Below, one piece after another: positions 1,496 to 13,967 of a stretch of 41,355 nt of DNA. Both the position numbers and the translations under genes were made by a program. Source of the stretch: Candidatus Omnitrophota bacterium (GTDB lineage Bacteria > Omnitrophota > Gorgyraeia > Aquiviventales > Aquiviventaceae); assembly GCA_023247215.1 (NCBI GenBank), contig JAHFGX010000011.1, positions 1 through 41,355 on the forward strand, given 5' to 3'. Positions within the stretch are counted from its first letter, which is position 1. Each line of letters starts with the position of its first letter. The notes under the pieces are model-generated. The model saw only the letters and a list, made by a program, of their open reading frames with translations, had not been told where the DNA came from and made no database searches.

Positions 1496-2653
1496 ATGAA
1501 CGGATCCTCTCCTATGGCAGTCGCATCGTCTTCTTGTCATTCCTATATCGGCGTGGACGTCGGCGGGACGAAAATCCAGGCCGGCGTTGTCGGCATCTCC
1601 GACGCGCCGCCGCATGCCTCTGCCATTCTACATCGCCTGCGCCTTTCGACGCCCGCGGCGGCTCCGGCCGCCTTCTACGACGCCATCGCGGAGCTGATCT
1701 GCCAGCTTCAAGCCCGCCTCGCGCGCGAGGGATGGGCCCATCGCTCGATCATCGGCGTCGCCCATCCCGGCCGGTTCCTGCCGGACGGCCGCGCCGCCCG
1801 CGGCACGGTGCCGAATCTGGGCGAATGGCCGGGGCAGTTCGATGAGATATGCCCTGCGAAAGAGTTGGAGCGCCGGGTGGGGTGGCGCGTGGTGGTCGAG
1901 AACGACGCCGTCGCCCAAATGCGCTCCGGGCTGCAATGGCTGCTGGACGATCCGGCCGCGCGGCCCGCGCTGCTGGGCCAGACGGTCGTCTATGTAGGGC
2001 CGGGCACCGGCATGGGCGGCGGCGCGGCCCGCGTGGCGCCGGACGGCGCGGTGACGCCGATCACCGATGGCCAACTCTTTGATCTCCAACTGGTAGGCTA
2101 TGGGGAGGGCAGGACCACCGCCGAAGAAGTGTTGACCGGCCCGGCCATCGCCCGGCAGGTCGCGGCTGCCAACCGCCAGTTGGCGGTTCCGATCCATCCT
2201 GCGAACGCGGAGCAGGTGGGGCGTCTCTTGGAGGACCCCCACGCGCTCCCTGAGCATCGGACGGCGGCGCGCCGCATCGCGGATCAGGCCGGGGAGATGC
2301 TCGGGCGCATTGTCGCGCTCCTGCATGCGGGCCAGGTGCACAAGATTCGTCTCGAGAGAACAGAGGGAGGAGTGGTCCGCCACCTGGATGAGCCTGATCG
2401 TCGCTGGTCTGAGGCGGATTGCGCGGTGGTGCGCGGCGTGCGGCGGGTGGTGCTGGGCGGATCGGTGGGCTCCAATCCCATCCTCGGCGCGCATCTGACG
2501 CGGCGCGCGCTGGAATGGCTGGCCGGGCAGGGCCTCACCGGAGTGCAGATCCTGCAGGTGCCCGGCGTATCAGCCGATGCGGGGCTGCTGGGCGCCGTCC
2601 TGGCGATCAAAGTCAAAGTGTCAGACACTTTTCGTGCGGGGAAAAGTGTCTGA
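1496..2653 (+). CDS. ROK family sugar kinase
   Basis: A 385-residue ROK (repressor, ORF, kinase) protein without an N-terminal helix-turn-helix, so a kinase rather than a regulator. It has the ATP-binding DxGxT motif (GVDVGGTKIQAGVV, about residues 18-31), the END(A) stretch carrying the catalytic aspartate (VVENDAVAQ, about residue 138), a GPGTGMGGG glycine loop and a late VVLGGSVGSNP nucleotide loop. The CxCGxxGC zinc motif of many ROK kinases is absent. The substrate cannot be read from the sequence; the convergent phosphomannose-isomerase-like gene suggests hexose phosphorylation. The last 13 residues (VKVSDTFRAGKSV) are encoded by the hairpin repeat at 2615-2659, so the native C-terminus was probably altered. 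ATG 1514 is an alternative start. Confidence 0.85.
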   Translation: MNGSSPMAVASSSCHSYIGVDVGGTKIQAGVVGISDAPPHASAILHRLRLSTPAAAPAAFYDAIAELICQLQARLAREGWAHRSIIGVAHPGRFLPDGRAARGTVPNLGEWPGQFDEICPAKELERRVGWRVVVENDAVAQMRSGLQWLLDDPAARPALLGQTVVYVGPGTGMGGGAARVAPDGAVTPITDGQLFDLQLVGYGEGRTTAEEVLTGPAIARQVAAANRQLAVPIHPANAEQVGRLLEDPHALPEHRTAARRIADQAGEMLGRIVALLHAGQVHKIRLERTEGGVVRHLDEPDRRWSEADCAVVRGVRRVVLGGSVGSNPILGAHLTRRALEWLAGQGLTGVQILQVPGVSADAGLLGAVLAIKVKVSDTFRAGKSV

Positions 2654-2659
2654 CACTTT
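2615..2659. repeat. Palindromic GTGTCAGACAC repeat, long perfect hairpin, copy 1
   Basis: AAAGTGTCAGACACTTTT (2615-2632) and its exact reverse complement AAAAGTGTCTGACACTTT (2642-2659) flank a 9-nt loop. Each arm is itself nearly palindromic. The element lies at the tail-to-tail junction of two convergent genes and supplies both TGA stops (2651-2653 on plus; 2623-2621 on minus). It could act as a bidirectional terminator. A second copy is at 28035-28073. Short palindromes of this kind resemble REP elements mobilised by Y1/RAYT transposases; no transposase is present here. Confidence 0.85.
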
Positions 2660-4168
2660 GGGACGGCTGAAGACCTGGAGCTGCGCCGGCCCGTCGGCGC
2701 GATAGCTGATCATATCGTATGGCAGGCTGGCTGGGAGCAGGGCCGGGTGGCCCGGCCGCACCACGCAGGTGTCCCTCGTCTCTCCTCGCTGCAATTCCAC
2801 TCTGACCTGGCCTTCCGTCGCGTGTAATTCGATAAAGGTATGGTGCTCCAAGGGAATCGTCGTGCGCCCAGGCCCGGCGAAGCGCAGCTCCTGCACGCGG
2901 AAATATGGCCACGCCGGCTCATCCACGGTCCGATACCACGCCGCCTGACCCTCGCGGGTTTCCCCCGGCAGGCGTGCGGGAGCGGCGGTGCGCAGGTAAT
3001 GGTCGCGCGGCCGGGGGGTCAGGTCAATCAGGCTCACAAACTCCTTCAAGGAGGCCGGGGTGATCGCCTTGCGGAAGCCCAGCCGCCCCTCGCGCCACGC
3101 GAAGGGCGTAAAAAAATCTCCCCCGCTTTCCGTCTTATCGAAGGTCCGCTGAGGCTCCACCAGGATCCATCCGGTACCGCCGTCCGGCAGCGTCAGCCGC
3201 TTGTAGATCCACAGCTCGTCTTTCGGATAGAAATTTCCCTTGATCCGAGGGTGCACCTGCAGGGAAAGGCCGGCGATCGCGTGCAGGGTCGGCGTCTCAA
3301 TCAAAATGGCCTGATCATCCGCGTAATCGATCCGGTGCAGCAGCGAGACCAGATGCCGCCGGATGGTTTGCTGCTGGCGCAAAAGCGTTTCTGCGCGCGC
3401 GGTCTCCGCGCGGCTGGCCACGAAGCCGTCCAGGTGCATGGAGGTCTCCCCGGCCCAGTCAGTTTGGGCCTGCGCGATGGCCCACTGTTTGTACGCCCGC
3501 TTGAGCTCGGCAAAGGCTTCCGGGGACGTGACGCGGGGGCGGACCAGCTCGGCCAGCGCCTCCAGCGAGGCGCGGTCCTGGCCGAATTGGTCGCACAGGT
3601 GCGCGGCGAATTGCGCCGAGTCCATCCCCAACCGCCCCACGGTGTCCGGATTGAATCCGACATACGCAAAAGGCGGGAAGTCCGACGGGTCCAGGAATTT
3701 GACAAAGAAATATTTTTGCTGATGGTGTTCCGGGTCGGCGCCGGCTGGGCCCAAGACCTCAGGCATCGTCGAGACCAAATGCTCCAGCGTCAAGTAGCCT
3801 AGGCCCTCCAGCGCGGTGCCGGCAATCACAGCCGGTTTCTGGGATCCGGAAAAGAACGGCCAAAATTCTGAAATGGGTTCGCTGGATTTGAACAGCCGCT
3901 GCAGGGCTGTGCCGGCCCATTCATAATGCGTGCCGTTGAATTCCGTCTGGATCGGCCGCGCCGTGCAGGCCAGGCATTGCAGGGCCCGGACCAGCGTCGG
4001 TGGATACGGCCCCTCGTGGCTGGCAATGGTCTCGAGCAGGGCACCCGCCGTCTTGCCATCCGCCTGTGCGCGCAGCCACGCCATCAGCGCCGACTCGTCC
4101 ATCCCGGGTTGGAATAACGCAACTACTTTCTTAAGAGTGAGTTGCAGCAGGTGGTGATGAGAACTCAT
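2621..4168 (-). CDS. Class I mannose-6-phosphate isomerase-like cupin protein
   Basis: A 515-residue protein. The middle resembles type I phosphomannose isomerase: FFVKFLD near residue 155, then LSLQVHP about 140 residues later and KDELWIY about ten residues after that. These carry the Gln, His and Glu residues that bind zinc in ManA. A C-terminal cupin-like stretch with RPGHPALLPA fits the second jelly roll. The N-terminal 130 or so residues are helical and not typical. The protein is longer than ordinary ManA (about 400), and the QVHP motif is separated from FLVKFLDA by an unusually long helical insertion. The role would be interconversion of mannose-6-P and fructose-6-P or a related sugar phosphate. 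The C-terminus (KVSDTFPRTKSV) comes from the hairpin repeat. A cupin of another specificity is possible. Confidence 0.6.
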   Translation of the reverse strand: MSSHHHLLQLTLKKVVALFQPGMDESALMAWLRAQADGKTAGALLETIASHEGPYPPTLVRALQCLACTARPIQTEFNGTHYEWAGTALQRLFKSSEPISEFWPFFSGSQKPAVIAGTALEGLGYLTLEHLVSTMPEVLGPAGADPEHHQQKYFFVKFLDPSDFPPFAYVGFNPDTVGRLGMDSAQFAAHLCDQFGQDRASLEALAELVRPRVTSPEAFAELKRAYKQWAIAQAQTDWAGETSMHLDGFVASRAETARAETLLRQQQTIRRHLVSLLHRIDYADDQAILIETPTLHAIAGLSLQVHPRIKGNFYPKDELWIYKRLTLPDGGTGWILVEPQRTFDKTESGGDFFTPFAWREGRLGFRKAITPASLKEFVSLIDLTPRPRDHYLRTAAPARLPGETREGQAAWYRTVDEPAWPYFRVQELRFAGPGRTTIPLEHHTFIELHATEGQVRVELQRGETRDTCVVRPGHPALLPASLPYDMISYRADGPAQLQVFSRPKVSDTFPRTKSV

Positions 4169-4176
4169 GGCAAATG

Positions 4177-4204
4177 ATTATACCTCCTCTTGACAGAGAT
4201 GCAA
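4177..4204 (-). promoter_or_regulatory. Sigma70-type promoter of the isomerase-like gene
   Basis: On the minus strand TTGCAT (4204-4199) and a perfect TATAAT (4182-4177) are separated by 16 nt. Only 8 nt separate the -10 box from the ATG at 4168, so the mRNA would be nearly leaderless. A GGAGG overlaps the -10 box and would lie upstream of the predicted transcript start, so it may not be used. The box lies back to back with the riboswitch promoter. Confidence 0.55.
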
Positions 4205-4218
4205 CAGATCAGGCATGT
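4190..4218 (+). promoter_or_regulatory. Candidate promoter of the c-di-GMP riboswitch transcript
   Basis: TTGACA (4190-4195) is a perfect -35 box. At 17 nt spacing lies GCATGT (4213-4218), a weak -10 match. Transcription would start near 4225, just ahead of the aptamer, as expected for a riboswitch leader. The -35 is convincing; the -10 is not. Confidence 0.4.
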
Positions 4219-4230
4219 TCTGTCTGCAAG

Positions 4231-4312
4231 ACGAACAGGCAAACCCACGGGAACGTGGGGACGCAAAGCCGCGAATCCACCAGAGATCGTTGGCGGATAG
4301 TCGGGCTGCCGA
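4231..4312 (+). ncRNA. Cyclic-di-GMP-I (GEMM) riboswitch aptamer
   Basis: The GEMM signature is nearly complete. ACAGGCAAACC (4236-4245) is followed by a stem CCCACG/CGTGGG (4244-4249/4254-4259) capped by a GGAA GNRA tetraloop. Then come GGGACGCAAAGCC (4258-4270), a second hairpin with arms ATCC.CCA and TGG.GGAT (4275-4298), and AGTCGGGCTGCCG (4299-4311). By alignment to the Vc2 aptamer, the guanine that contacts the ligand (G20) is G4238 and the intercalating A47 is A4265; both are conserved, favouring c-di-GMP over cGAMP. The 3' strand of the aptamer is also the 5' arm of the terminator. It precedes the secreted fibre-like operon, a typical target of this class. Confidence 0.9.
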
Positions 4313-4344
4313 ACGCATGTCGGCAGCCCGACTTTGCATTATTT
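4299..4344 (+). terminator. Riboswitch expression platform: intrinsic terminator
   Basis: AGTCGGGCTGCCGA (4299-4312) pairs perfectly over 14 bp with TCGGCAGCCCGACT (4320-4333) across a 7-nt loop, followed by TTGCATTATTT. The 5' arm is the last conserved segment of the aptamer, so the two folds exclude each other. Ligand binding should hold the aptamer and prevent the terminator, predicting an ON switch. The U-tract is interrupted, so termination may be incomplete. Confidence 0.75.
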
Positions 4345-4352
4345 ACATAACA

Positions 4353-4387
4353 AATTGCTTGACGAGCAATTCGTTTATTGCTAGAAT
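4353..4387 (+). promoter_or_regulatory. Second promoter with palindromic operator ahead of the fibre operon
   Basis: TTGACG (4359-4364) and TAGAAT (4382-4387) are 17 nt apart, a good sigma70-type promoter downstream of the riboswitch terminator. A perfect inverted repeat AATTGCT-TGACG-AGCAATT (4353-4371) overlaps the -35 box and is a plausible repressor operator. The local sequence is markedly AT-rich. The operon may therefore be driven both through the riboswitch and by this promoter. The leader from about 4394 to 4499 shows nothing else apart from the AGGAGG at 4485-4490. Confidence 0.6.
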
Positions 4388-4499
4388 AATTCAACTTTTA
4401 AAATCGAATCGTAATAGATTCATCTTCAAGTTGGGAAAGAAGTTTGGAAAGCTATTCGGTAGCGTGGAACAACTGGAGCACAGCAGGAGGAAGCATCGG

Positions 4500-5087
4500 A
4501 TGAGCAAGACGCAACTCATGAAGCTGGGCGGGGCACTTGCGGTGTGTACCGTCGTGGTCGCGTCGGGAGCGCAAGCGGCGACCACTCAAAGTGTCGCGTC
4601 CGTCTCCGCGTCGGTTCCAGCTCGCGCTGATGTCGCCTTGGCCCGGGATGCGAATTCCGTCTCGCGTGGTTCGGCCAGCCAGCTCGTGTTTGACAAGTAC
4701 GATGACAAAGATGTCACCGATGGCAGCACCGGGTTTATGTATGCGCCGTACCGAAGCGAAACCGGAAAAAACTGGCACGTCGCGCAGCTTGCGGCCAACG
4801 GCTCGTCCTTGACCCTCACCGTGACGGCCACCGGCACCGTCGGCTCCTCGCCCATCGCAGACCGCTTGAAGGTGTGGTGCGGAGGATTCTGGCCGGCGAC
4901 CACCGGCGCCTCCGTGGTGTCCGGGACGACCTCGACCCAGTGGGAATCGTTGTCCGGCAGCGGCTTCAGCCGTTCGCTGAGCCAGTCCTTCAACGGCACG
5001 GTGCCCTTCAGCTACCAGCTCGATATCACCGGCATTAGCTCCGGCTCCTACACCGGCACCGTTACCTTTACCCTGACCTCGAATTAA
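4500..5087 (+). CDS. Secreted pilin-like (spore coat U type) protein
   Basis: A 195-residue protein with a Sec signal peptide (MSKTQLMKLGG then a hydrophobic core, cleavage after GAQA, about residue 24). The mature part is Ser/Thr/Gly-rich and beta-strand-rich with a single cysteine (VWCGG). The C-terminal strand SGSYTGTVTFTLT matches the G-x-Y-x-G-x-V-x-F-T-L-T ending of the next two proteins and of SCPU/CsuA-type subunits. AGGAGG at 4485-4490 sits 9 nt before this ATG. Longer in-frame starts exist upstream, but they run through the riboswitch and have no signal peptide at their N-terminus. Probably the major extracellular subunit of a fibre or coat. The family assignment rests on context and the terminal strand. 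Confidence 0.75.
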   Translation: MSKTQLMKLGGALAVCTVVVASGAQAATTQSVASVSASVPARADVALARDANSVSRGSASQLVFDKYDDKDVTDGSTGFMYAPYRSETGKNWHVAQLAANGSSLTLTVTATGTVGSSPIADRLKVWCGGFWPATTGASVVSGTTSTQWESLSGSGFSRSLSQSFNGTVPFSYQLDITGISSGSYTGTVTFTLTSN

Positions 5088-5127
5088 CCATCGTGCTATA
5101 CTACTCCCCCAGCAGGGAGGAGAGTAG

Positions 5128-5694
5128 ATGGCGGTGAAGCCCTTTGCCCGGAGGAGCCGGCGGTTCTTCTACGGGTGCGCGGTGGCGCTGATCGGGCAGC
5201 TTGCCATGCCGGCGGCGGAAGCGTTGGATGAAGAATCCGCCACGTTGTCCGCGTCCGTCGAAGTCGCGCCGGTCTTCAGCCTCTCCCTCACCAATCCCCA
5301 CCTGGCGTTTGCCGAATTGCGGCCCGGCCAGCCCACCGTGTTGGGCGAGGGGCGATTCTTCAACGAAGTGGCCTGCCGCTCCAATTCCGGCCACCCGTGG
5401 CTGCTGACCGCCCAAATCCTCTCGCTCCATCATGCCCAGGGGGGCTATGCGTTGCCGGCCTCGGCATTGGAATGGAGCATCGTGGAGGCCACCGGATCCG
5501 GCCAAATCGCCCACGGCCCAGGGATCTTCAACCCGTTTTCCGACCAGTCCGTTCTCCTGTACAGCGCGCAGGGCGACGACACGAAAGGCCATCCTGTTTT
5601 CTTGCACTTCCGCTACCGCCTCACTAGCCCGCTTGATGCTCCCGCCGGCTCGTATGTGGGAGAGATCGTCTTCACCATGACGGAGAGTTTGTGA
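5128..5694 (+). CDS. Secreted pilin-like subunit 2
   Basis: A 188-residue protein with a basic N-terminus and signal peptide (cleavage near AAEA, about residue 32). It shares with its neighbour at 5696 the block F-N/Y-x-x-x-C-x-S-x-x-G-x-x-W (here EVACRSNSGHPW) followed by an alternating strand, and ends with AGSYVGEIVFTMT, the same terminal strand as the proteins on either side. GGGAGG at 5115-5120 is 7 nt from the ATG. A small hairpin (CTACTC/GAGTAG) overlaps this ribosome site, and a TATACT (5097-5102) could provide extra transcription. Probably a minor or tip subunit of the same surface structure. Confidence 0.72.
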   Translation: MAVKPFARRSRRFFYGCAVALIGQLAMPAAEALDEESATLSASVEVAPVFSLSLTNPHLAFAELRPGQPTVLGEGRFFNEVACRSNSGHPWLLTAQILSLHHAQGGYALPASALEWSIVEATGSGQIAHGPGIFNPFSDQSVLLYSAQGDDTKGHPVFLHFRYRLTSPLDAPAGSYVGEIVFTMTESL

Positions 5695-5695
5695 C

Positions 5696-6193
5696 ATGGC
5701 GGCGCGCTCTCAATCTCCCCGCATCCTCGTGGCGGTGTTGGCCTTCGTGGCCGCAGCCGGCCCGGCCTGGGCCGGCCTGACCTTCTCGACGGACAACCGT
5801 CCGCTGGTGTTCGGCGTGATGGAGATCGGCGAAGAGCGGGAGCTGGTGCAGGGGGGCGCCTATCATAACCAGCTCACCTGTTCGTCCACCAATGGCCGGG
5901 CATGGTATCTGAAAGTCAGCCTGCTCACGCCGATGACCTCCGGAAGCGACGCGCTGCCGTTCGACGCGCTGGAGTGGCAAGTCGTGCGGACCAGCGGGGT
6001 GGGGACGGTACCCTCCCTGCACCAGTGGCGTCCCTTCAGCCCGCAGCCGGAGACGGTCTATCTGGGGACCGCGGATGAAGCGGCTGGCCAACCGGTGCAG
6101 ATTGAATTGAAGTACCGGTTGAAAATTCCCGAGATTCAAGTGAGCGGACCGTATCAGGCGACCATCCGCTTCACCTTGACGGAGGTGCTATGA
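5696..6193 (+). CDS. Secreted pilin-like subunit 3
   Basis: A 165-residue paralogue of the preceding protein, starting 1 nt after its stop. Signal peptide with cleavage after AWA (about residue 25). It contains HNQLTCSSTNGRAWYLKVSL, which lines up with the cysteine block of the previous protein. The ending SGPYQATIRFTLT is the conserved terminal beta-strand. In donor-strand-exchange systems the subunits are incomplete Ig-like folds completed by a chaperone, which fits the chaperone gene that overlaps the stop of this one. Role as a fibre subunit is inferred. Confidence 0.72.
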   Translation: MAARSQSPRILVAVLAFVAAAGPAWAGLTFSTDNRPLVFGVMEIGEERELVQGGAYHNQLTCSSTNGRAWYLKVSLLTPMTSGSDALPFDALEWQVVRTSGVGTVPSLHQWRPFSPQPETVYLGTADEAAGQPVQIELKYRLKIPEIQVSGPYQATIRFTLTEVL

Positions 6194-6987
6194 CGCGACT
6201 CCTTGGCGTGCGTCGTGCTTCGGCCTGGATCGGGGCCGTCCTCGCGGTCCTCAGCGCGCGGCCAGCCGAGGTCACGGCCTTCGACTTCAGCATCGAACCG
6301 GCGCGGGTGGAGCTGGCGGTGCCCGCCGGAAAGCGGCGCGGCAAGACCGTGGTCATCAACAACAGCAAGTCTGATCACGCCACCCACCTGGCCGTGTACG
6401 TCCGGGACGTGCTCTACCTGCCGGACGGCACGCACGATTTTCCGCCGCCGGGCAGCACGGAATGGTCCTGTGCAAGCTGGCTCCAGGCCACGCCGACCGA
6501 ATTGGACGTGCCTGCCGGACAAATGGGGGAGGTGCGGATCAGCGCCCTCGCTCCCGCCGACGCGGTCGGCGGCCACTACGCGATTGTCTTTTTCGAAACG
6601 GCCCCGGCCTATGAGCAGGGCTCCATCGGGGTCAATTTCCGCGTGGGGGCGCTGGTGGAGGTGCTCGTGCCCGGCACGGAAGCGCAGGCGGCAAAGCTGG
6701 CCAACCTCTCGTTTTTACCTCCGAAGATGATCCAGGCGGACGTGTTCAACGAGGGCAACGCCCTCATCCGGCCCAAGGGCAAGATCAAGATCTTTGACGG
6801 GGCGAATCAACGCGTAGCCCAGATCACCTTCAATCCCAACCGGCTCGGGGTGCTGCCGAAAACGCTGCGAACGTTCCCTACGACGCTGGAGACCCCCCTC
6901 ACATCCGGGACCTACCGGGTGCGGGCCGAGTTGGATTACGGAACGAAGCAGTTATTGGTGGGGGAACTTCAAACCACCGTGCCATAA
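6190..6987 (+). CDS. Periplasmic PapD-like pilus assembly chaperone
   Basis: A 265-residue secreted protein (signal peptide to about residue 28). It opens with FDFSIEPARVEL-VPAGKRRGKTVVINNS, the first-strand pattern of PapD/FimC-type chaperones. An Ig-like domain containing LDVPAGQMGEVRISA and GGHYAIVFFET follows, then a second beta domain from about residue 165. It begins in ATGA overlap with the third subunit gene. Chaperones of this class bind nascent subunits in the periplasm and deliver them to an outer-membrane usher. It is more divergent than classical FimC, so I am sure of the fold type but not of the exact family. Confidence 0.7.
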   Translation: MTRLLGVRRASAWIGAVLAVLSARPAEVTAFDFSIEPARVELAVPAGKRRGKTVVINNSKSDHATHLAVYVRDVLYLPDGTHDFPPPGSTEWSCASWLQATPTELDVPAGQMGEVRISALAPADAVGGHYAIVFFETAPAYEQGSIGVNFRVGALVEVLVPGTEAQAAKLANLSFLPPKMIQADVFNEGNALIRPKGKIKIFDGANQRVAQITFNPNRLGVLPKTLRTFPTTLETPLTSGTYRVRAELDYGTKQLLVGELQTTVP

Positions 6988-7017
6988 CGGCCATCACGTG
7001 ATCCCATTCCGGCTCTC

Positions 7018-9732
7018 ATGACGTGCCTCCGCGCGCGCAGGTCGCGCCCGACACAGTGCCTGCTGTTAGTGGGAACCGGGATGTGTTTGGCGTGCCCACC
7101 CCTGGCCGCCGAAAATTTTTCCTCCCCGTCCAACGCGCCGTCCCGGCGCGACGCCGCCATTGCGGAATCACTCTACCTGGCCGAGCGGGAACAGCGCCAG
7201 CGCGTCGTGTCTCCCGCGCCGGTCACCAGCGGGGTGCAGGTCGAGTTCAATGGAGAGCCGCTGACCCTGGCTGAGCCGGTGGTGTTTGAGGAGGGGGAAT
7301 TTTGGCTGCCGCTGCGCGGCGTCGCCGCCGCCCTCTACTTCACGGTGATCGAGTTGGCCCCGGACCGGTTTGAGCTGATCTCCCGGGAAGGCCAGACGCG
7401 CACCATCACGGTGCGGCGCCGCCAGGATCGTCCGGTCGTGACCCCGGAGGAGCTGATCCAGGAATTCGGCGTCCAGGTCCACACGGATGCGGCGCGGCAA
7501 ACCGTGTCCATCCGGACGCCGGCCCCCCTCGGGTTCCAGACGACGATGATGGACAAGCCTCCGGAAGATCTGCAGGCGGAGGCGGCGGAGCAGAAGCTGA
7601 TCCGGCAGGCGACGGAGATCCCCGCGCTTCCCTCGTATCTCCCGGAAAACGCCAGGCCAGACGTGGACCTGCACGGCGGCGTCTCCACGACCTATATCAA
7701 ACGGCATGGGCTGGGGCCGCTGCGCAGCGTTGTCTCGTCGGTGGAGGGCAAATGGTATGGATTTGATGTGCACGGGCAGGATGCGCGCAAAGACGTCAAC
7801 GGAATTTTTGATCACGACTACAGCTATCTCAACCTCGAAAAGCCGAACCTCTTTCTCGGATTGTTCGATCAGCAGGTGGATTTGGCGCCGTTGCGGGCGC
7901 AGTCCCAGGGCATTGAGGGTGTGAAGCTCAGGAAGGCCTTTGGCACGGGGACGCAGTCGCTCCTGACGCTGGCCAGCGGCCAGACCGAAACAACGGTCAG
8001 CGGCACGGCCGGGTCCACCAAATATACCGGCTATCTGTCGCAAGTGACGCAGGAACTGCAGCCGGCGTCCTGGCTGCACCTGAAAGGCTCGCTGATGTAC
8101 CTCTACAATGAGGCGGACTTGCCGGAACGGTACGGGACCTCCGATTTTCCCCGGCATGCTCTGGTGTCGTTCGCCGGGGCGGACTGGAGCTTGCCGGCAA
8201 ATCTGACCTGGTCCACCCATTTGGCCCATTCGGACTACCGCCCCGATAACGCGACGGATGAGGATCACCTGAACGGCGACTGGGACTGGCGCAGCGGGCT
8301 GAACTGGGCTCAGGGCGGCTCCCGCTGGGGCGCGTTCTACGAGTCCATCGGAGACCGGTATGCCTCGCTGGGTGATCCCGCGCTGTATCAGGATTACCAA
8401 GGCTGGACGATTTCCGGCACGCATCCGATGAGCCCGGACTGGCGGCTGTCAGGCAACCTGCTGCTCTATCGCAATAACGTCGCGGATCGACCGGAGCGGG
8501 TCACCACGAGGAACCAAGCCCTCTCGCTCTCCTCCAGCTACCAGGTGACGGACCGGCAGACGCTGAACGTGTCCTTTAACGACATTCTGGCAAACCCCGC
8601 CGCGACGCGAGGGGATCCAGGCTCCAGCAGCCGCTCCTATCTCTGGCGGGCGGATTATTTCATGCCGTTTATCTTCTCCAACAGCCGCTTGCTCAACACG
8701 TATCAATATTTTCGCAACGAAGCCAGGACCACCTCCGATTCGTCCTCGCATACGGTCGGCCCCACCATCTTCAAGTCGTACGGCCGGGGCTCCAGTTGGT
8801 ACCTGAGCCCTCAGTTCACGCGAAGCTTCCGGGAAGTCGGTGATGACGAGTGGGGAGTCACCACCACCTTTAACATTGATCACTATCTGCTGCGGACGTT
8901 GAGCGTTTTTTGGAACTCCAGCTATACCTGGGACCGGGTGGAAGAGTCCAAGGCCACGGAGACGGTGTCGTGGTCGGCGGGGTTCCAGCATCGCCCGCTG
9001 CGCGACACGGCCTTCCGGGTGGAATACAGCGTCGGCTCCTACAATCTCAGGACGGAGCGGGGGAAATGGCCCCGGAACTGGTCGCTGTTATGGTACCTGT
9101 CCCAGGGGTTTGGGTTCGCGACGGCGCCGAAGTTCGGCGGGGTCGAGGGTTGGGTTTTCGAGGACCTCAACGCTAACGGCATCCGGGATGCCGATGAGGC
9201 CTGGGTGACGGACGCCCGCTTAAGCTTGGAAGATCAGCGGGAATCGGTGACGGATCAGGAGGGGCACTTCACATTTACGCGGCTGGTGCCGGGAAGCCAG
9301 GTAATCTCGCTGGATTTGGCCAGCCTTGATCCTGAGTGGCTCGTCAAGGAGCCTCGCCGGGCGGTCCAGGTGAAGGGGCGCCAGCGCACGACGGTCTCAT
9401 TTCCGCTGGTCAAGGGCGCGTCGGTCTCCGCCCGGGTCTTTATTGACGAAAATCAGGATGGGCAGTTCCAGGACACCGAGGAGCCGTTAGAAGGGGTGGC
9501 GGTGGTTCTGCTGCCCGGTGACCAGTTCCGGCGCACCAATGCGGAGGGTCTGGTCCGATTTGAACCGCTGCTGCCGGGCGTCTATACCATCCACGTGCAC
9601 CGGGAGGATTTACCGCAAGGCTATGAGCTGGTGATGGATGAGCCGAGAATTATGCAGTTGTCCCCTGGGGACCACGTGGAGGGGATGGTGTTTGGGGTTC
9701 GTTTGGTTTCGGTGTCGATCAAGCAATTCTAA
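7018..9732 (+). CDS. Outer-membrane beta-barrel protein with stalk and SdrD-B-like domains, usher-like position
   Basis: A 904-residue secreted protein. After a signal peptide (cleavage around AA-ENF, residue 31) comes a copper-amine-oxidase-N-like stalk domain (about 70-165; FNGEPLTL, FWLPLRGVAAAL). A long region of amphipathic strands rich in Tyr/Trp/Ser (about 215-705) then looks like a large outer-membrane barrel. Two SdrD-B/collagen-binding-B-like repeats follow (about 707-800 and 805-904), each with a calcium-loop motif (DLNANGIRDADE; DENQDGQFQDTEE). It fills the position of the FimD/PapC usher in the operon, but I see no canonical usher N-domain, plug or C-domains. It may export and anchor the fibre subunits, which is inference. 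It ends 6 nt before the convergent gene. Confidence 0.7.
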   Translation: MTCLRARRSRPTQCLLLVGTGMCLACPPLAAENFSSPSNAPSRRDAAIAESLYLAEREQRQRVVSPAPVTSGVQVEFNGEPLTLAEPVVFEEGEFWLPLRGVAAALYFTVIELAPDRFELISREGQTRTITVRRRQDRPVVTPEELIQEFGVQVHTDAARQTVSIRTPAPLGFQTTMMDKPPEDLQAEAAEQKLIRQATEIPALPSYLPENARPDVDLHGGVSTTYIKRHGLGPLRSVVSSVEGKWYGFDVHGQDARKDVNGIFDHDYSYLNLEKPNLFLGLFDQQVDLAPLRAQSQGIEGVKLRKAFGTGTQSLLTLASGQTETTVSGTAGSTKYTGYLSQVTQELQPASWLHLKGSLMYLYNEADLPERYGTSDFPRHALVSFAGADWSLPANLTWSTHLAHSDYRPDNATDEDHLNGDWDWRSGLNWAQGGSRWGAFYESIGDRYASLGDPALYQDYQGWTISGTHPMSPDWRLSGNLLLYRNNVADRPERVTTRNQALSLSSSYQVTDRQTLNVSFNDILANPAATRGDPGSSSRSYLWRADYFMPFIFSNSRLLNTYQYFRNEARTTSDSSSHTVGPTIFKSYGRGSSWYLSPQFTRSFREVGDDEWGVTTTFNIDHYLLRTLSVFWNSSYTWDRVEESKATETVSWSAGFQHRPLRDTAFRVEYSVGSYNLRTERGKWPRNWSLLWYLSQGFGFATAPKFGGVEGWVFEDLNANGIRDADEAWVTDARLSLEDQRESVTDQEGHFTFTRLVPGSQVISLDLASLDPEWLVKEPRRAVQVKGRQRTTVSFPLVKGASVSARVFIDENQDGQFQDTEEPLEGVAVVLLPGDQFRRTNAEGLVRFEPLLPGVYTIHVHREDLPQGYELVMDEPRIMQLSPGDHVEGMVFGVRLVSVSIKQF

Positions 9733-9738
9733 TCGGGA

Positions 9739-10014
9739 TCACCACTGAACTCTGGTGTAGCGAATAAACGAGGCGTCTCCGTCTTGCACCATGTCGGCGT
9801 CCACTTGCCTGGCAGAAAGATCCGGCCGTTGAATCACCGCACGGAGCACCTCGTCGGTGATGGATTTCACGGTCGGCTGATCATGCCGTTCCGGGATGAT
9901 GATCAGAATCTGCGCCGTCTCGCTTGAGCTCTGGGCGTACGCTGCCATGCCACCTCCGAAACACAATCCACACACGCCTGCCGCCACCCAACCGAGCACC
10001 GCTCGATGCGCCAT
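9739..10014 (-). CDS. Small exported protein (91 aa) under a leader-RNA terminator
   Basis: The start is ATG 10014. The longer open frame upstream runs through the terminator and leader RNA and is not credible. The protein has a signal peptide (MAHRAVLGWVAAGVCG... cleavage after AYA, about residue 28). A roughly 63-residue mature domain has strands ILIIIPE and FIRYTRVQW. I do not recognise the family. A GGAGAGG lies inside the 3' arm of the terminator 12 nt before the ATG, so opening the terminator would also free the ribosome site. It is convergent with the barrel gene and could be an accessory of that surface system. Confidence 0.6.
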   Translation of the reverse strand: MAHRAVLGWVAAGVCGLCFGGGMAAYAQSSSETAQILIIIPERHDQPTVKSITDEVLRAVIQRPDLSARQVDADMVQDGDASFIRYTRVQW

Positions 10015-10019
10015 GGCAC

Positions 10020-10050
10020 AAAAAAGCCTCTCCGTTGCGTGAGAGGCCTT
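10020..10050 (-). terminator. Intrinsic terminator between leader RNA and the 91-aa protein gene
   Basis: On the minus strand GCCTCTC and GAGAGGC pair around an 8-nt loop (10047-10041/10032-10026) and are extended by AAG/UUU pairs, then six U residues. This is a textbook intrinsic terminator ending 5 nt before the start codon, so it must be regulated or leaky. GGGAGGC in the upstream leader (10074-10068) can pair with the 5' arm GCCTCTC as an antiterminator. Confidence 0.85.
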
Positions 10051-10058
10051 CTCCCTGT

Positions 10059-10172
10059 GGCAGTCCAGCCTCCCGCATCTGCGGGACTGAGACTTTGCCC
10101 ACGGATCGCCCAACCCGTGGCCCTGCTGATCGCAGGGGTCCCCGCCTTACGGCGGGTTTGCGTTTCTCAACG
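10059..10172 (-). ncRNA. GEMM-like riboswitch candidate with a 39-nt two-hairpin insertion
   Basis: Read on the minus strand: TGAGA (10169-10165), GCAAACC, a stem CCCGCC/GGCGGG capped by a GUAA GNRA loop (10156-10141), GGGAC, a 39-nt insertion (10137-10099), GCAAAG, TCTCA (10092-10088, pairs with TGAGA), a hairpin CCCGCA/TGCGGG (10085-10072), then AGGCTGGACTGCC. Apart from the insertion the order and motifs match the c-di-GMP-I aptamer at 4231. The insertion forms two perfect 6-bp hairpins (CCCTGC/GCAGGG and CCACGG/CCGTGG). The base aligned with ligand-contacting G20 appears to be C, so it could be degenerate or bind another dinucleotide. A terminator follows. Confidence 0.55.
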
Positions 10173-10261: not shown

Positions 10262-10302
10262 CTTTAAAAAACATTGACAGAAATCAGACGATTCGAGAAA
10301 AT
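10262..10302 (+). promoter_or_regulatory. Promoter of the sugar ABC transporter operon
   Basis: TTGACA (10274-10279) and GAAAAT (10297-10302) are 17 nt apart, with an A/T run TTTAAAAAAC just upstream (10263-10272) resembling an UP element. The ATG lies 7 nt after the -10 box, predicting a leaderless mRNA. The in-frame TTG at 10274 is part of the -35 box, not a start codon. Confidence 0.6.
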
Positions 10303-10309
10303 AGTCGTC

Positions 10310-11197
10310 ATGCAACGACTGAACTGGCACCCAATCGGCTACCTCTTTATCGCGCCGGCCGTCGTGCTGTTTCTGGTATTTGTTGTGGTGCCAATCTTTG
10401 CCTCGCTGTTCCTTAGCTTTACCCAGTACAACGTGCTGCATCCCCCTGTCTGGGTCGGCCTGGCCAACTTCCTCACGATTATCCTGCAGGATCCGCGGTT
10501 TTGGAAAGCCTTCCGCAATACCATCTTCTACGTTCTGGGAGTGGTCCCCATCGGGATCTCGCTGGCCCTCTTATTGGCGGTGGCGCTGGAAGAGCTTCAG
10601 CGCGGCAAGCAGTTCTTCAAAGTGCTCTATTTCATCCCGACCGTGACCTCGGTGGTGGCGATTTCCGTGGTGTGGAAGTGGCTGTTTGCCGGGGAAAAGT
10701 TCGGGTTGATCAATTCCTGGCTGATCCGCCTGGGCCTGGAACCCATTGACTGGCTCCTCTCGCCCACTTGGATCCTGCCGGCCATCATGATCATGAGCAT
10801 CTGGGCGGGGCTGGGCTACAACCTGGTCTTGTTTTCCGCCGGCTTGTCCACCATCCCGCAGACGCTCTATGAAGCGGCCAAGGTGGACGGGGCCGGCTGG
10901 TGGACCCGGTTCTGGCACGTGACCGTGCCGATGCTGCGGCCGACGCTGATCTTCGTGGTGGTGACGTCCGTCATCGCGTCCTTTCAGGTGTTCGACCAGG
11001 TGTACATCATGACGTCGGGCACCGGCGAAGGCGTGGGGGGCGTGCTCGACAGCGGGCTGACCTTGGTGGCGTACCTCTATGATCAAGGGTTCCAGAGGTT
11101 CCACATGGGCTATGCCTCGGCGATCGGCTATCTGATCTTCGGATGCGTGCTGGGGTTGACCTTGCTGAACCGGCGCTTGCTGAAATCGCGGGACTAA
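10310..11197 (+). CDS. Carbohydrate ABC transporter permease, MalF/UgpA type
   Basis: A 295-residue inner-membrane protein with six hydrophobic segments. The first starts at residue 8 (YLFIAPAVVLFLVFVVVPIF, the usual opening of this family). The cytoplasmic EAA loop that contacts the ATPase is clear (EAAKVDGAGWWTRFWHVTVP, about residues 187-206). Start ATG 10310 was chosen because the upstream TTG is a promoter box. It forms a heterodimer with the permease encoded 2 nt downstream. The neighbouring hydrolase and binding-protein genes point to oligosaccharide uptake. Confidence 0.9.
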   Translation: MQRLNWHPIGYLFIAPAVVLFLVFVVVPIFASLFLSFTQYNVLHPPVWVGLANFLTIILQDPRFWKAFRNTIFYVLGVVPIGISLALLLAVALEELQRGKQFFKVLYFIPTVTSVVAISVVWKWLFAGEKFGLINSWLIRLGLEPIDWLLSPTWILPAIMIMSIWAGLGYNLVLFSAGLSTIPQTLYEAAKVDGAGWWTRFWHVTVPMLRPTLIFVVVTSVIASFQVFDQVYIMTSGTGEGVGGVLDSGLTLVAYLYDQGFQRFHMGYASAIGYLIFGCVLGLTLLNRRLLKSRD

Positions 11198-11199
11198 GC

Positions 11200-12033
11200 A
11201 TGCCCAAGATGAAACCCGAAATCGGCTGGCGGATCTGCCTGGTCATCCTGCTGGCCATTGGCGCCACAGTGATGATCCTGCCGTACTACTGGATGTTTAT
11301 TACCTCCATCAAGCCGCCGGAGGAAATCCACACCTATCCGCCCCAGTTTTTTGTGCGCCATCCCACCTGGCAGCCGTATGTGGACCTGTTTCGCCTGTTG
11401 CCGATGGGGCGCAGCCTGTTCAACAGCCTGTTTGTGGCCACCGCGGTCACGCTCAGCAATGTGGTCTTCTGCTCGTTGGCCGGCTATGCCTTCAGCAAGC
11501 TGCGTTTCCCGGGGCGGGATGGGATGTTCTTCACCTTGCTGGCCTCCATGATGATCCCGTGGCAGGTGAACCTGATTCCAGGCTACCTGATCGTCCGGTC
11601 TCTGGGGTGGCTCAACACCTTTTGGGCGCTGATCATCCCGAAGCTGGCGCTGCCGTTCGGGATTTTCCTCTGCCGCCAGTACATCATGAGCATTCCCAAC
11701 GACTTGATCGAGGCCGCGCGCATTGACGGCTGCACGGAATTCGGTATCTATCGGCGCGTGATCCTGCCCTTGATCACGCCGGCCCTGGCCACCCTCTCCA
11801 TCTTTACCTTCCTGGCGCAGTGGAACGATTTCGTCTGGCCCCTGGTCGTGATCCATTCCAGCTCCATGCGGACCGTGCCGCTAACCATCTCCGTCCTCAA
11901 CGGACAGTTCGGCACGAACTTCGCGATGGTGATGGCCGGCGCCGTGGTGGTGACGGTGCCGGTGATCGCCATTTTCCTGGTGTTCCAGCGCCAATTCCTG
12001 AAGGGCGTCGTGCTGACGACGATCCGCGAATGA
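11200..12033 (+). CDS. Carbohydrate ABC transporter permease, MalG/UgpE type
   Basis: A 277-residue second permease, also with six membrane segments. It shows the typical N-terminal YYWMFITSIKPPEEI stretch and an EAA loop (EAARIDGCTEFGIYRRVILP, about residues 171-190). It starts 2 nt after the stop of its partner; the longer upstream frame overlaps that gene and is unlikely. The ATPase (usually an MsmX/UgpC-type protein) is not encoded in this window, so a shared ATPase elsewhere is probable. Its last codons overlap the hydrolase gene as ATGA (12030-12033). Confidence 0.9.
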   Translation: MPKMKPEIGWRICLVILLAIGATVMILPYYWMFITSIKPPEEIHTYPPQFFVRHPTWQPYVDLFRLLPMGRSLFNSLFVATAVTLSNVVFCSLAGYAFSKLRFPGRDGMFFTLLASMMIPWQVNLIPGYLIVRSLGWLNTFWALIIPKLALPFGIFLCRQYIMSIPNDLIEAARIDGCTEFGIYRRVILPLITPALATLSIFTFLAQWNDFVWPLVVIHSSSMRTVPLTISVLNGQFGTNFAMVMAGAVVVTVPVIAIFLVFQRQFLKGVVLTTIRE

Positions 12034-13967
12034 CGGGATGGTCTGCAGGTGCTGGCCACGGGTCCTGCCGCCTGCGGCAGCCCGCCGGGCTCGCTGCGGC
12101 TGCGCGCGGCGGGCGCCCGCCTTCGGCGTCACCCCTGGCTTCTCCCGTGCGCCTTCAGTGGCCTCGCGTGTTCTTGATCGCCGTCGCACTCCTATTGTGG
12201 GGCAATGAGGGGTGGGCGGCGGAGCCGGTGCGCATCGTGTCGGTGCAGTTGGAGCAGCCGGTGATCGGGCTGTATGAGCGCTGCGAGCTGACCGTGCAGC
12301 TGGCCGGAGACATCATCAACCCGTACGACCCCGACGAGCTGACGCTGGAGGCGACGTTCCAGCCCACCCGCGGCCGTCCGGTCACGGTGTCGGGATTTTA
12401 TTACCAGCCATTTGAGCAGGTGACGACTTCGCGTGGCGCGCGGGCTATTCAGCCGGCCGGCGAACCGGTCTGGAAGGTGCGTTTTACACCCACTCGCACC
12501 GGCCGCTGGGCCTATCAGCTTCGTCTGCTGGCCAAGGGGACGGCGGTGGAGGGGCCCAGTGGGGCGGTGGAAGTCTCACCCTCCACCCGGCCCGGATTCG
12601 TGCGGTTGGATCGCGCCACCGGCCTGATGCGGTTCGACCGGGGAGAAACGTTTATTCCCATCGGAGAAAACCTGGCCTGGGCGCCGAGCTCGCAGCTTCT
12701 GGAGACGTACGATCGGTGGTTTGAGGAGCTCAGCCGGCAGCGCGCCAACTACATTCGGGTGTGGCTGGCGCCGTGGTCGCTTCGCCTGGAGACGAAAGAG
12801 ACGGGCGTGGGCCGGTATGACCAACTGCGCGCCTGGCAGCTGGATCAGCTCTTGGAGCGCAGCGACAAGGCCGGCCTCTACTGGCAGCTCTGCCTGCTGA
12901 GCCACGGCAGCTTCAGCCGGACGCACGATCCGGATTGGCAGAACAACCCCTACAATCACGATCTGGGAGGCATGTGCCGCCTGCCGAATGAGTTTGTGAC
13001 GGATCCCCGAGCCAAGGCGCTCTTCCGCCGGCTCTTGCAGTACCTGGTCAGCCGGTGGGGCTACAGCCCGCAACTGGCCACCTGGGAACTGTTCAATGAG
13101 GCGGATGCCAGCGATATCCGCTCGGAGGATTTTACGCCCTGGATCGGGGAAATGAGCCGGTTGTTGCGCGTCATTGACGTGAACCGCCGGCCCATCACGG
13201 TCAGCTTCCAGCGGGAGAGCGGGGACGCGGTCTGGAAGCTGCCGACGATTGACACCGTGCAGCTGCATGTCTATGACCAGCGGGATTTCGGAGAAACATT
13301 TTCCGGCCCCCTGCTCCCGCAACTGGAAGCCGAGTTTCGCAAGCCGGTCATGGTGGGGGAGTTTGGATGGATCGGGGAATTCGTGCGGGACGTGGACCCG
13401 AACGGCATCCATCTGCATGACGGCATGTGGGCCAGCTTGGTGGGTGGCTCGATCAGCTCGGCGATGCCCTGGTGGTGGGACAATTACATTCATCCGAACC
13501 ACTTGGAGCATCATTACCGCCCGCTGGCCCGGTTCTGGCGCGGCGAACAGCTGGAAGAACCGCTCAGCCGCATGACGCTGACCCCCTCGGATGCGGACGT
13601 GCTGGGATGCGCCACCGGGACTTCGAGCCAAGCCTATCTGTGGGTGAAAAACCGCACGCATAACGTTGATCAGTACTTGGCCTACCGGTGTGCATTGGCC
13701 AAGCAGCGCCTGCGGGCCGCGCGGCAGCAGCCGGCCGGGCCGTCGCCAAGCTATCCCCCGCGGGTGGTCAGCGACGCCACCGTGACTCTCTCCGGCCTGA
13801 AGAGCAACGGCCGGTATCGCTTGGAATGGTGGGACACCTATCGCGGGCGCGTCATGCGGACGAATGTGGTGACGGCGGAACGCGGGCAGGTGATGCTGAA
13901 GCTGCCGGATTTGGCGTTCGATGTGGCCGCCAAGCTGGTGCGGCTGCATTGGTGGGAGCATGGCTGA
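12030..13967 (+). CDS. Secreted DUF5060 / GH5-like glycoside hydrolase
   Basis: A 645-residue protein from ATG 12030. The N-terminal part after the signal peptide (about residues 65-155) is a beta domain of the DUF5060 type (VIGLYERCELTVQL, a fibronectin-like module with WKVRFTPTRTGRWAYQLR). A TIM-barrel hydrolase domain follows (about 185-520). The general acid/base Glu is in WELFNEADA (E357) and the nucleophile Glu in VMVGEFGW (E444), matching clan-A retaining hydrolases. A beta domain closes the protein. The first 39 codons read through GC-rich palindromes (for example CTGCCGC/GCGGCAG at 12065-12080). GTG 12147, just before a clean signal peptide, is a likely alternative start. The substrate is probably a beta-glycan, by inference. 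Confidence 0.85.
   Translation: MTGWSAGAGHGSCRLRQPAGLAAAARGGRPPSASPLASPVRLQWPRVFLIAVALLLWGNEGWAAEPVRIVSVQLEQPVIGLYERCELTVQLAGDIINPYDPDELTLEATFQPTRGRPVTVSGFYYQPFEQVTTSRGARAIQPAGEPVWKVRFTPTRTGRWAYQLRLLAKGTAVEGPSGAVEVSPSTRPGFVRLDRATGLMRFDRGETFIPIGENLAWAPSSQLLETYDRWFEELSRQRANYIRVWLAPWSLRLETKETGVGRYDQLRAWQLDQLLERSDKAGLYWQLCLLSHGSFSRTHDPDWQNNPYNHDLGGMCRLPNEFVTDPRAKALFRRLLQYLVSRWGYSPQLATWELFNEADASDIRSEDFTPWIGEMSRLLRVIDVNRRPITVSFQRESGDAVWKLPTIDTVQLHVYDQRDFGETFSGPLLPQLEAEFRKPVMVGEFGWIGEFVRDVDPNGIHLHDGMWASLVGGSISSAMPWWWDNYIHPNHLEHHYRPLARFWRGEQLEEPLSRMTLTPSDADVLGCATGTSSQAYLWVKNRTHNVDQYLAYRCALAKQRLRAARQQPAGPSPSYPPRVVSDATVTLSGLKSNGRYRLEWWDTYRGRVMRTNVVTAERGQVMLKLPDLAFDVAAKLVRLHWWEHG

Follow-up and report, generated by a model that had tools for sequence, protein, structure and literature searches.

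We analyzed a 41,355-nucleotide stretch of DNA (the window), which is one contig, JAHFGX010000011.1, of the 1.46-Mb, 92% complete genome of a Candidatus Omnitrophota bacterium. The window carries a five-gene operon with a cyclic di-GMP (c-di-GMP) riboswitch in front of it, and the system is real, its gene order being conserved in relatives. In order, the locus consists of the riboswitch, three genes for secreted beta-rich proteins, a gene for a chaperone with two immunoglobulin (Ig)-like domains, and a gene for an outer-membrane barrel (Table 1). We consider it moderately likely that these genes represent a new branch of chaperone/usher-like assembly systems, here controlled by the c-di-GMP riboswitch. 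The parts appear to work like those of the known kind, and the chaperone is apparently related to its chaperones; the system is therefore placed with that kind, as a variant. An earlier reading of the sequence (the original prediction) had proposed a chaperone-barrel secretion system switched by c-di-GMP, and our analysis upheld the riboswitch-led operon and the barrel in the place of the usher, but not the PapD-like nature of the chaperone.

The conservation of the locus was examined in 193 Omnitrophota genomes. The barrel, or its SdrD_B part alone, was found in 90 of them, and the chaperone profile matched 73. Twenty regions of 14–20 kb (designated by L numbers) were inspected along with the window, and at all 21 barrels the chaperone gene lies directly upstream of the barrel gene, the chaperone of L041 being detected by profile only. 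The original prediction had named absence of the gene cluster from relatives as an argument against a system; the gene order proved to be conserved. Upstream of the chaperone, one to several secreted proteins are encoded, and the final strand of many of these fits the pattern GxYxxxVxFTLT. Three Deinococcus plasmids (L072, L073, and L074) also carry a homologous chaperone (profile E-values down to 8e-49) between two secreted proteins, close to a protein of 1,013–1,090 amino acids with SdrD_B or CarboxypepD_reg domains. The match to this large protein is confined to its C-terminal domains, with none for the barrel; thus, it is not established that Deinococcus has a barrel of this family. The proteins of the Deinococcus plasmid loci are all annotated as hypothetical or in generic terms.

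The relatives of the chaperone are not those that had been proposed. No Pfam or NCBIfam chaperone model matched the window protein, and the PapD-type family PF00345 had no match among 20 chaperone homologs. Against the PDB, the chaperone profile retrieved only two kinds of protein, EcpB (E=1.5e-6) and WxLIP (EfmWxLIP1 of Enterococcus, E=1.1e-5), and the EfmWxLIP1 match spanned both chaperone domains. HHalign gave 94.1% to the EcpB family alignment versus 18.4% to classical chaperones, and WxLIP_PGBD was matched by 5 of the 20 family members. We counted individual residues in 30 homologs. The chaperone superfamily has one invariant proline in domain 1, Pro60 of EcpB, and a further residue, Arg89, marks the archaic and alternative chaperones and anchors the subunit carboxylate (PMC4654587). 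The superfamily proline is present in the window protein as P102 and is a proline in 27 of the 30 homologs. The G1 donor motif, I146-V148-F150-R151-V152, is conserved, with alternating hydrophobic residues I146, V148, F150, and V152; the P0 residue at position 152 is hydrophobic in every homolog (30/30), and the G1-strand arginine that aligns with EcpB Arg116 is found in 29 of 30. As judged from these aligned columns, the protein has the residues looked for in a donor-strand chaperone, except for the Arg89 that defines the archaic/alternative group. The kinship of the chaperone supports the earlier proposal that the subunits are chaperone-dependent. The profile of the chaperone family alignment by itself reached pilus chaperones of the EcpB type as well as Gram-positive WxLIP.

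The 904-residue protein was modeled with AlphaFold2 as a single chain on the basis of ten relatives. The model (pLDDT, predicted local distance difference test, 76.7) contains a small N-terminal domain (NTD; residues 74–166), 26 consecutive strands (residues 216–701), and two C-terminal domains (CTDs) of the SdrD_B type (Pfam E=1.2e-15), in agreement with the barrel and SdrD-B domains described before. The predicted barrel has no plug, all inter-strand segments between residues 216 and 701 being no longer than about 16 residues. The predicted domain order, NTD-barrel-CTD1-CTD2, resembles that of ushers. In a Foldseek search of the PDB, the 13 best matches were FimD/PapC (E=1e-20 to 1e-11), with other large barrels starting near 1e-7. 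The isolated barrel of FimD scored on a par with these other large barrels, no better than TonB-dependent receptors, which indicates that the extra FimD/PapC signal comes from the barrel and the C-terminal domains combined. Ahead of the barrel, many of the relatives carry T2SS-T3SS_pil_N, a pilus-formation N-terminal domain (14/21), and TPR repeats (TPR_2 match, 8/21).

HHalign comparison with the Escherichia coli ushers gave a probability of 70.9%, for the C-terminal domains only. With the FimD/PapC matches, the usher layout, and this resemblance, the earlier description of the barrel as unrelated to ushers was too strong. The FimD/PapC ranking, the C-terminal resemblance, and an EcpB-like chaperone adjoining the barrel, as in ecpB-ecpC, would also fit an ordinary chaperone-usher pilus locus of the archaic or alternative type that has diverged strongly; the barrel would then be a true usher with a drifted sequence and with C-terminal domains that have come to score as SdrD_B. 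We regard this as unlikely, however, given the comparisons of the barrel segment by itself, which yielded 3.2% and 0.7% versus 97.3% in the positive control of FimD-type against EcpC-type ushers, together with the behavior of the isolated FimD barrel, the 26 predicted strands, the lack of a plug, and the absence from the chaperone of Arg89. Comparison with the EcpC family gave 1.7%, a value that rests on a five-member alignment, as a single EcpC sequence had failed the positive control of classical ushers against EcpC. PF00577 matched neither the barrel nor its relatives nor anything else in the host genome, which agrees with the original prediction that no FimD-type usher is present. These results indicate that the barrel is usher-like in its predicted architecture, with membership of the usher family not established, and "usher-like, plug-less, new branch" is a description that fits it.

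The three secreted proteins had been said to share the same terminal beta-strand. The terminal motif was indeed found in all three, and subunits 2 and 3 are homologs; subunit 1, however, has no detectable homology to either and has only the C-terminal strand motif in common with them. The AlphaFold2 model of subunit 2 (pLDDT 86.4, core mostly >93) has a beta-sandwich core preceded by an N-terminal extension that is predicted to be disordered at about residues 30–49. Most subunits at the surveyed loci carry N-terminal extensions, and alignment showed that the extension is absent from the subunit 3 family. The position of subunit 3 beside the chaperone is conserved, and this protein is a candidate for the tip, or first-exported, subunit. 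Searches of the PDB and Pfam with the subunit profile gave no matches, a structure search with the subunit model returned no confident PDB fold (CfaB at E=0.034), and no WxL domain was matched in the 19 subunits searched.

These subunit data bear on a second alternative, that of a non-polymerising surface display system, a diderm counterpart of WxL/WxLIP, in which beta-sandwich proteins are clamped by the chaperone-like protein and single subunits are anchored or exported by the barrel. In its favor are the alignment to EfmWxLIP1 across both domains, the WxLIP_PGBD matches, and the predicted insertion of a WxLIP strand into WxL (PMC10599100). The presence of several subunits, most of them with N-terminal extensions, the slightly better match to EcpB, the usher-like barrel architecture, and the lack of a WxL match make such a system improbable.

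We next describe the riboswitch in front of the operon. The GEMM aptamer of the original prediction was confirmed, since the site passes the Rfam gathering thresholds of both RF03167 (59 bits) and its parent family RF01051 (35 bits) with the consensus fold and is by score a c-di-GMP-I riboswitch. Its core is GACGCAAAGC, with an A at the position where the GGC-variant consensus carries G. A change of ligand, which we take the variant name c-di-GMP-I-GGC to suggest, was dropped on this evidence; because the core has the A, c-di-GMP was retained as the likely ligand predicted from the sequence. The terminator is a 14-bp hairpin (fold of 4298–4345, −29.1 kcal/mol) with a weak U-tract (UUUGCAUUAUUU). 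Because the hairpin uses the 3' strand of the aptamer itself, the ligand-bound aptamer and the terminator are mutually exclusive, as had been claimed, and by ordinary riboswitch logic an ON switch is predicted. The likeliest start of the first gene is the ATG at 4500, which stands behind an AGGAGG box and gives a protein of 195 amino acids; a start at 4215 was set aside in its favor. A promoter scan did not report the site at 4190–4219 that was read by eye.

In the 21 barrel-bearing genomes, RF01051 had 87 matches. Of the 21, 16 have at least one c-di-GMP-I riboswitch no farther than 7 kb from the barrel, against 0.8 expected; the P value of about 4e-20 assumes independent genomes and is overstated, as the genomes are related, yet 16 genera are covered. 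A riboswitch upstream of the operon was dropped as the usual arrangement, since most relatives have theirs before a small gene that is convergent with the barrel; operon-side aptamers also occur in L039, L040, and L041. Some aptamer matches are 113–180 nucleotides long versus the usual length of about 87 and score just above gathering (L039, 15043–15155; L043, 8785–8919; L055, 6481–6650; L059, 8942–9121; L061, 1253–1420 and 16541–16709).

The small gene, which the original prediction had overlooked, encodes a secreted protein and is convergent with the barrel at 19 of 26 loci (the window, L031, L032, L037, L038, L041–L047, L050, L052, L055–L057, L059, and L061). In this protein, a signal peptide is followed by a strand that resembles the beginning of the subunits, then by a variable linker and a second strand that resembles their end. 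A c-di-GMP-I aptamer precedes the gene at 17 of the 19 loci, 16 of them above the Rfam threshold and that of L046 just below it; in L031, L032, L037, and L050, the riboswitches sit past the barrel on the opposite strand. The window has its full aptamer before the operon and only degenerate remains before the small gene, namely an RF01051 match at 10056–10132 (27.5 bits, below the gathering threshold; E=0.0026) and a partial RF03167 match at 10138–10159 (21.2 bits). ON-type geometry, in which the terminator uses an aptamer strand, was found at the window operon and at one L041 site. A free-standing terminator 3' of an aptamer is the arrangement of an OFF switch. Among the 17 small-gene aptamers tested, 12 are followed by a free-standing, U-tailed hairpin, 2 by weak hairpins, and 3 by none. 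In 5 of 11 small-gene cases, pairing of the aptamer 3' strand with the terminator 5' arm, as needed for an antiterminator, exceeded that of shuffled sequences (p<=0.05); in the rest it did not. These data are no more than suggestive of OFF switches before the small gene.

The small protein may be a cap or stopper of assembly; this is the least secure step of the mechanism given below, and we put it forward tentatively. That the gene is convergent with the barrel at so many loci, is under purifying selection (close pairs, nonsynonymous rate dN 0.14 versus synonymous rate dS 0.7–1.0), and encodes a C-terminal strand resembling that of the subunits argues for a link with the operon. A rival to the stopper part alone is that the gene encodes an independent c-di-GMP-controlled secreted protein whose position reflects shared regulation only. 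The low identity between clades (10–30%) and the lack of a family match point in this direction, and we take this explanation to be distinctly possible. Tandem c-di-GMP-I aptamers precede the small gene in L031 (13–89 and 213–291) and L032 (5337–5420 and 5478–5564). A small regulator-like open reading frame (ORF) of the type RVVTFLxRxEVDFLDKxGKDALF lies nearby on the small-gene strand in L037, L050, L056, and L061.

Table 1. Features of the locus, with positions in the window
Feature	Position	Strand	Basis
Possible promoter of riboswitch transcript: TTGACA (4190–4195), 18 nt, CATGTT (4214–4219)	4190–4219	+	Read by eye; weak −10
c-di-GMP-I riboswitch aptamer	4229–4314	+	RF03167, 59.3 bits; RF01051, 66.3 bits
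Intrinsic terminator hairpin overlapping aptamer 3' strand, ON-switch geometry	4299–4333	+	RNA fold, hairpin scan
Second promoter-like site, 3' of terminator	4359–4387	+	10/12 consensus matches; prediction only
Subunit 1: secreted, N-terminal extension, beta-rich, C-terminal strand YTGTVTFTLTSN	4500–5087	+	Translation; L052 homolog, E=1.9e-51
Subunit 2: secreted beta-sandwich, N-terminal extension	5128–5694	+	AlphaFold2, alignments
Subunit 3: subunit 2 family without N-terminal extension	5696–6193	+	E=4e-20 to subunit 2; alignment
Two-domain periplasmic chaperone, EcpB/WxLIP-related	6190–6987	+	PDB profile matches, HHalign, column counts
Usher-like outer-membrane barrel, 904 aa	7018–9732	+	AlphaFold2, Foldseek, Pfam SdrD_B
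Small secreted "mini-subunit," 91 aa, convergent with barrel	9739–10014	−	19/26 loci; alignment; purifying selection
Terminator GGCCUCUC...GGAGAGGCUUUUUU before small gene; likely Shine-Dalgarno box within 3' arm	10020–10049	−	Sequence, hairpin scan
Degenerate c-di-GMP-I-like aptamer remains upstream of small gene	10056–10159	−	Sub-threshold Rfam scores

Under the chaperone/usher-like reading, the three beta-rich subunits would cross the inner membrane by Sec, and the EcpB/WxLIP-like chaperone would hold each of them by donation of its G1 strand. The 26-strand barrel would take the chaperone-subunit complexes and pass the subunits outward, where the N-terminal extension of each subunit would replace the chaperone strand in its neighbor and so build a fiber by donor-strand exchange; subunit 3, lacking the extension, would go first and form the tip. 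When bound to the aptamer, c-di-GMP would block the terminator and thereby switch on the operon. The small convergent protein would cap or block assembly, and the small-gene riboswitches, degenerate in the host genome, would switch this stopper off at high c-di-GMP. A bolder version, with a plug-less 26-strand gate of independent or very early origin, a chaperone lineage bridging pilus chaperones and WxLIP, and two opposed riboswitch outputs (fiber on, mini-subunit stopper off), seems doubtful to us.

Several observations weigh against a chaperone/usher-like system under riboswitch control. The residue at EcpB Arg89 is an arginine in none of the 30 chaperones and is A131 in the window, the barrel segment cannot be linked to ushers by sequence, and the TM-scores of the model to FimD are low (0.25–0.32 by query length). 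The subunits have no confident match to a known pilin family or fold. The promoter-like site past the terminator, if used, could bypass the riboswitch, and no riboswitch reaches the Rfam threshold in L052, the closest relative. Finally, terminator position and weak pairing statistics are the basis of the OFF-switch reading.

We compared the locus with four known systems. Like the E. coli common pilus (EcpA-EcpB-EcpC-EcpD, the alternative pathway), it has an EcpB-related chaperone gene followed by a barrel gene, with the proline and the G1 pattern kept; unlike it, it has no Arg89, a barrel unlinked to EcpC, subunits without a known family, and a c-di-GMP riboswitch. With type 1 and P pili (FimC-FimD and PapD-PapC; PF00345/PF00577), it shares a predicted N-terminal domain, a large barrel, and two C-terminal beta domains, but it differs in the 26 predicted strands, the missing plug, the SdrD_B C-terminal domains, the lack of an usher Pfam match, and the low score to classical chaperones. 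WxLIP (DUF916-DUF3324) of the Gram-positive WxL clusters has two Ig-like domains arranged in the order seen in the chaperone, which here, in contrast, adjoins an outer-membrane barrel in a diderm, with subunits in which no WxL domain was detected. The operon riboswitch is of the same aptamer class as other c-di-GMP-I (GEMM-I) riboswitches and has a terminator-based ON geometry, whereas the opposed geometries predicted at the two ends of the locus set it apart.

Our literature search found no paper linking Omnitrophota with chaperone-usher systems and none placing a c-di-GMP riboswitch at a chaperone-usher-type locus; the two papers in which such a riboswitch, pili, and chaperone-usher systems all appear are general reviews. 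A set of genes across Omnitrophota that is related to the known kind yet distinct from it, accompanied by a related chaperone on Deinococcus plasmids, would widen the kind past the reach of usher-based searches, since none of the usher, chaperone, or pilin models picks it up. The sequence relationships of the chaperone suggest that the chaperones of pili are linked to WxLIP and that the EcpB-type and Gram-positive proteins have a common origin. The locus also provides a testable case in which one second messenger may drive a fiber operon and a putative stopper in opposite directions through riboswitches. The system appears to be a distant, uncatalogued cousin of surface-fiber machines, its core kept in many Omnitrophota, and opens a new branch of fiber-building machinery to testing.

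Outside this locus, aptamers in the host genome and in L080, L083, L084, L085, and L088 lie before PilB/PilC-like genes, PilT-like and GGDEF-like genes, and Flp/Tad-pilin-like genes, and further genes behind aptamers there encode sensor kinases and large repeat surface proteins (genes named by eye from translations). The aptamers that the host genome has before PilB/PilC-like, PilT-like, and Flp/Tad-pilin-like genes and sensor kinases are as expected of a surface-attachment regulon. In the window, the locus is flanked at 1496–4168 and 10274–13967 by ORFs that by eye are sugar-related (ROK-type kinase-like, mannose-6-phosphate isomerase-like, and ABC sugar permease-like).

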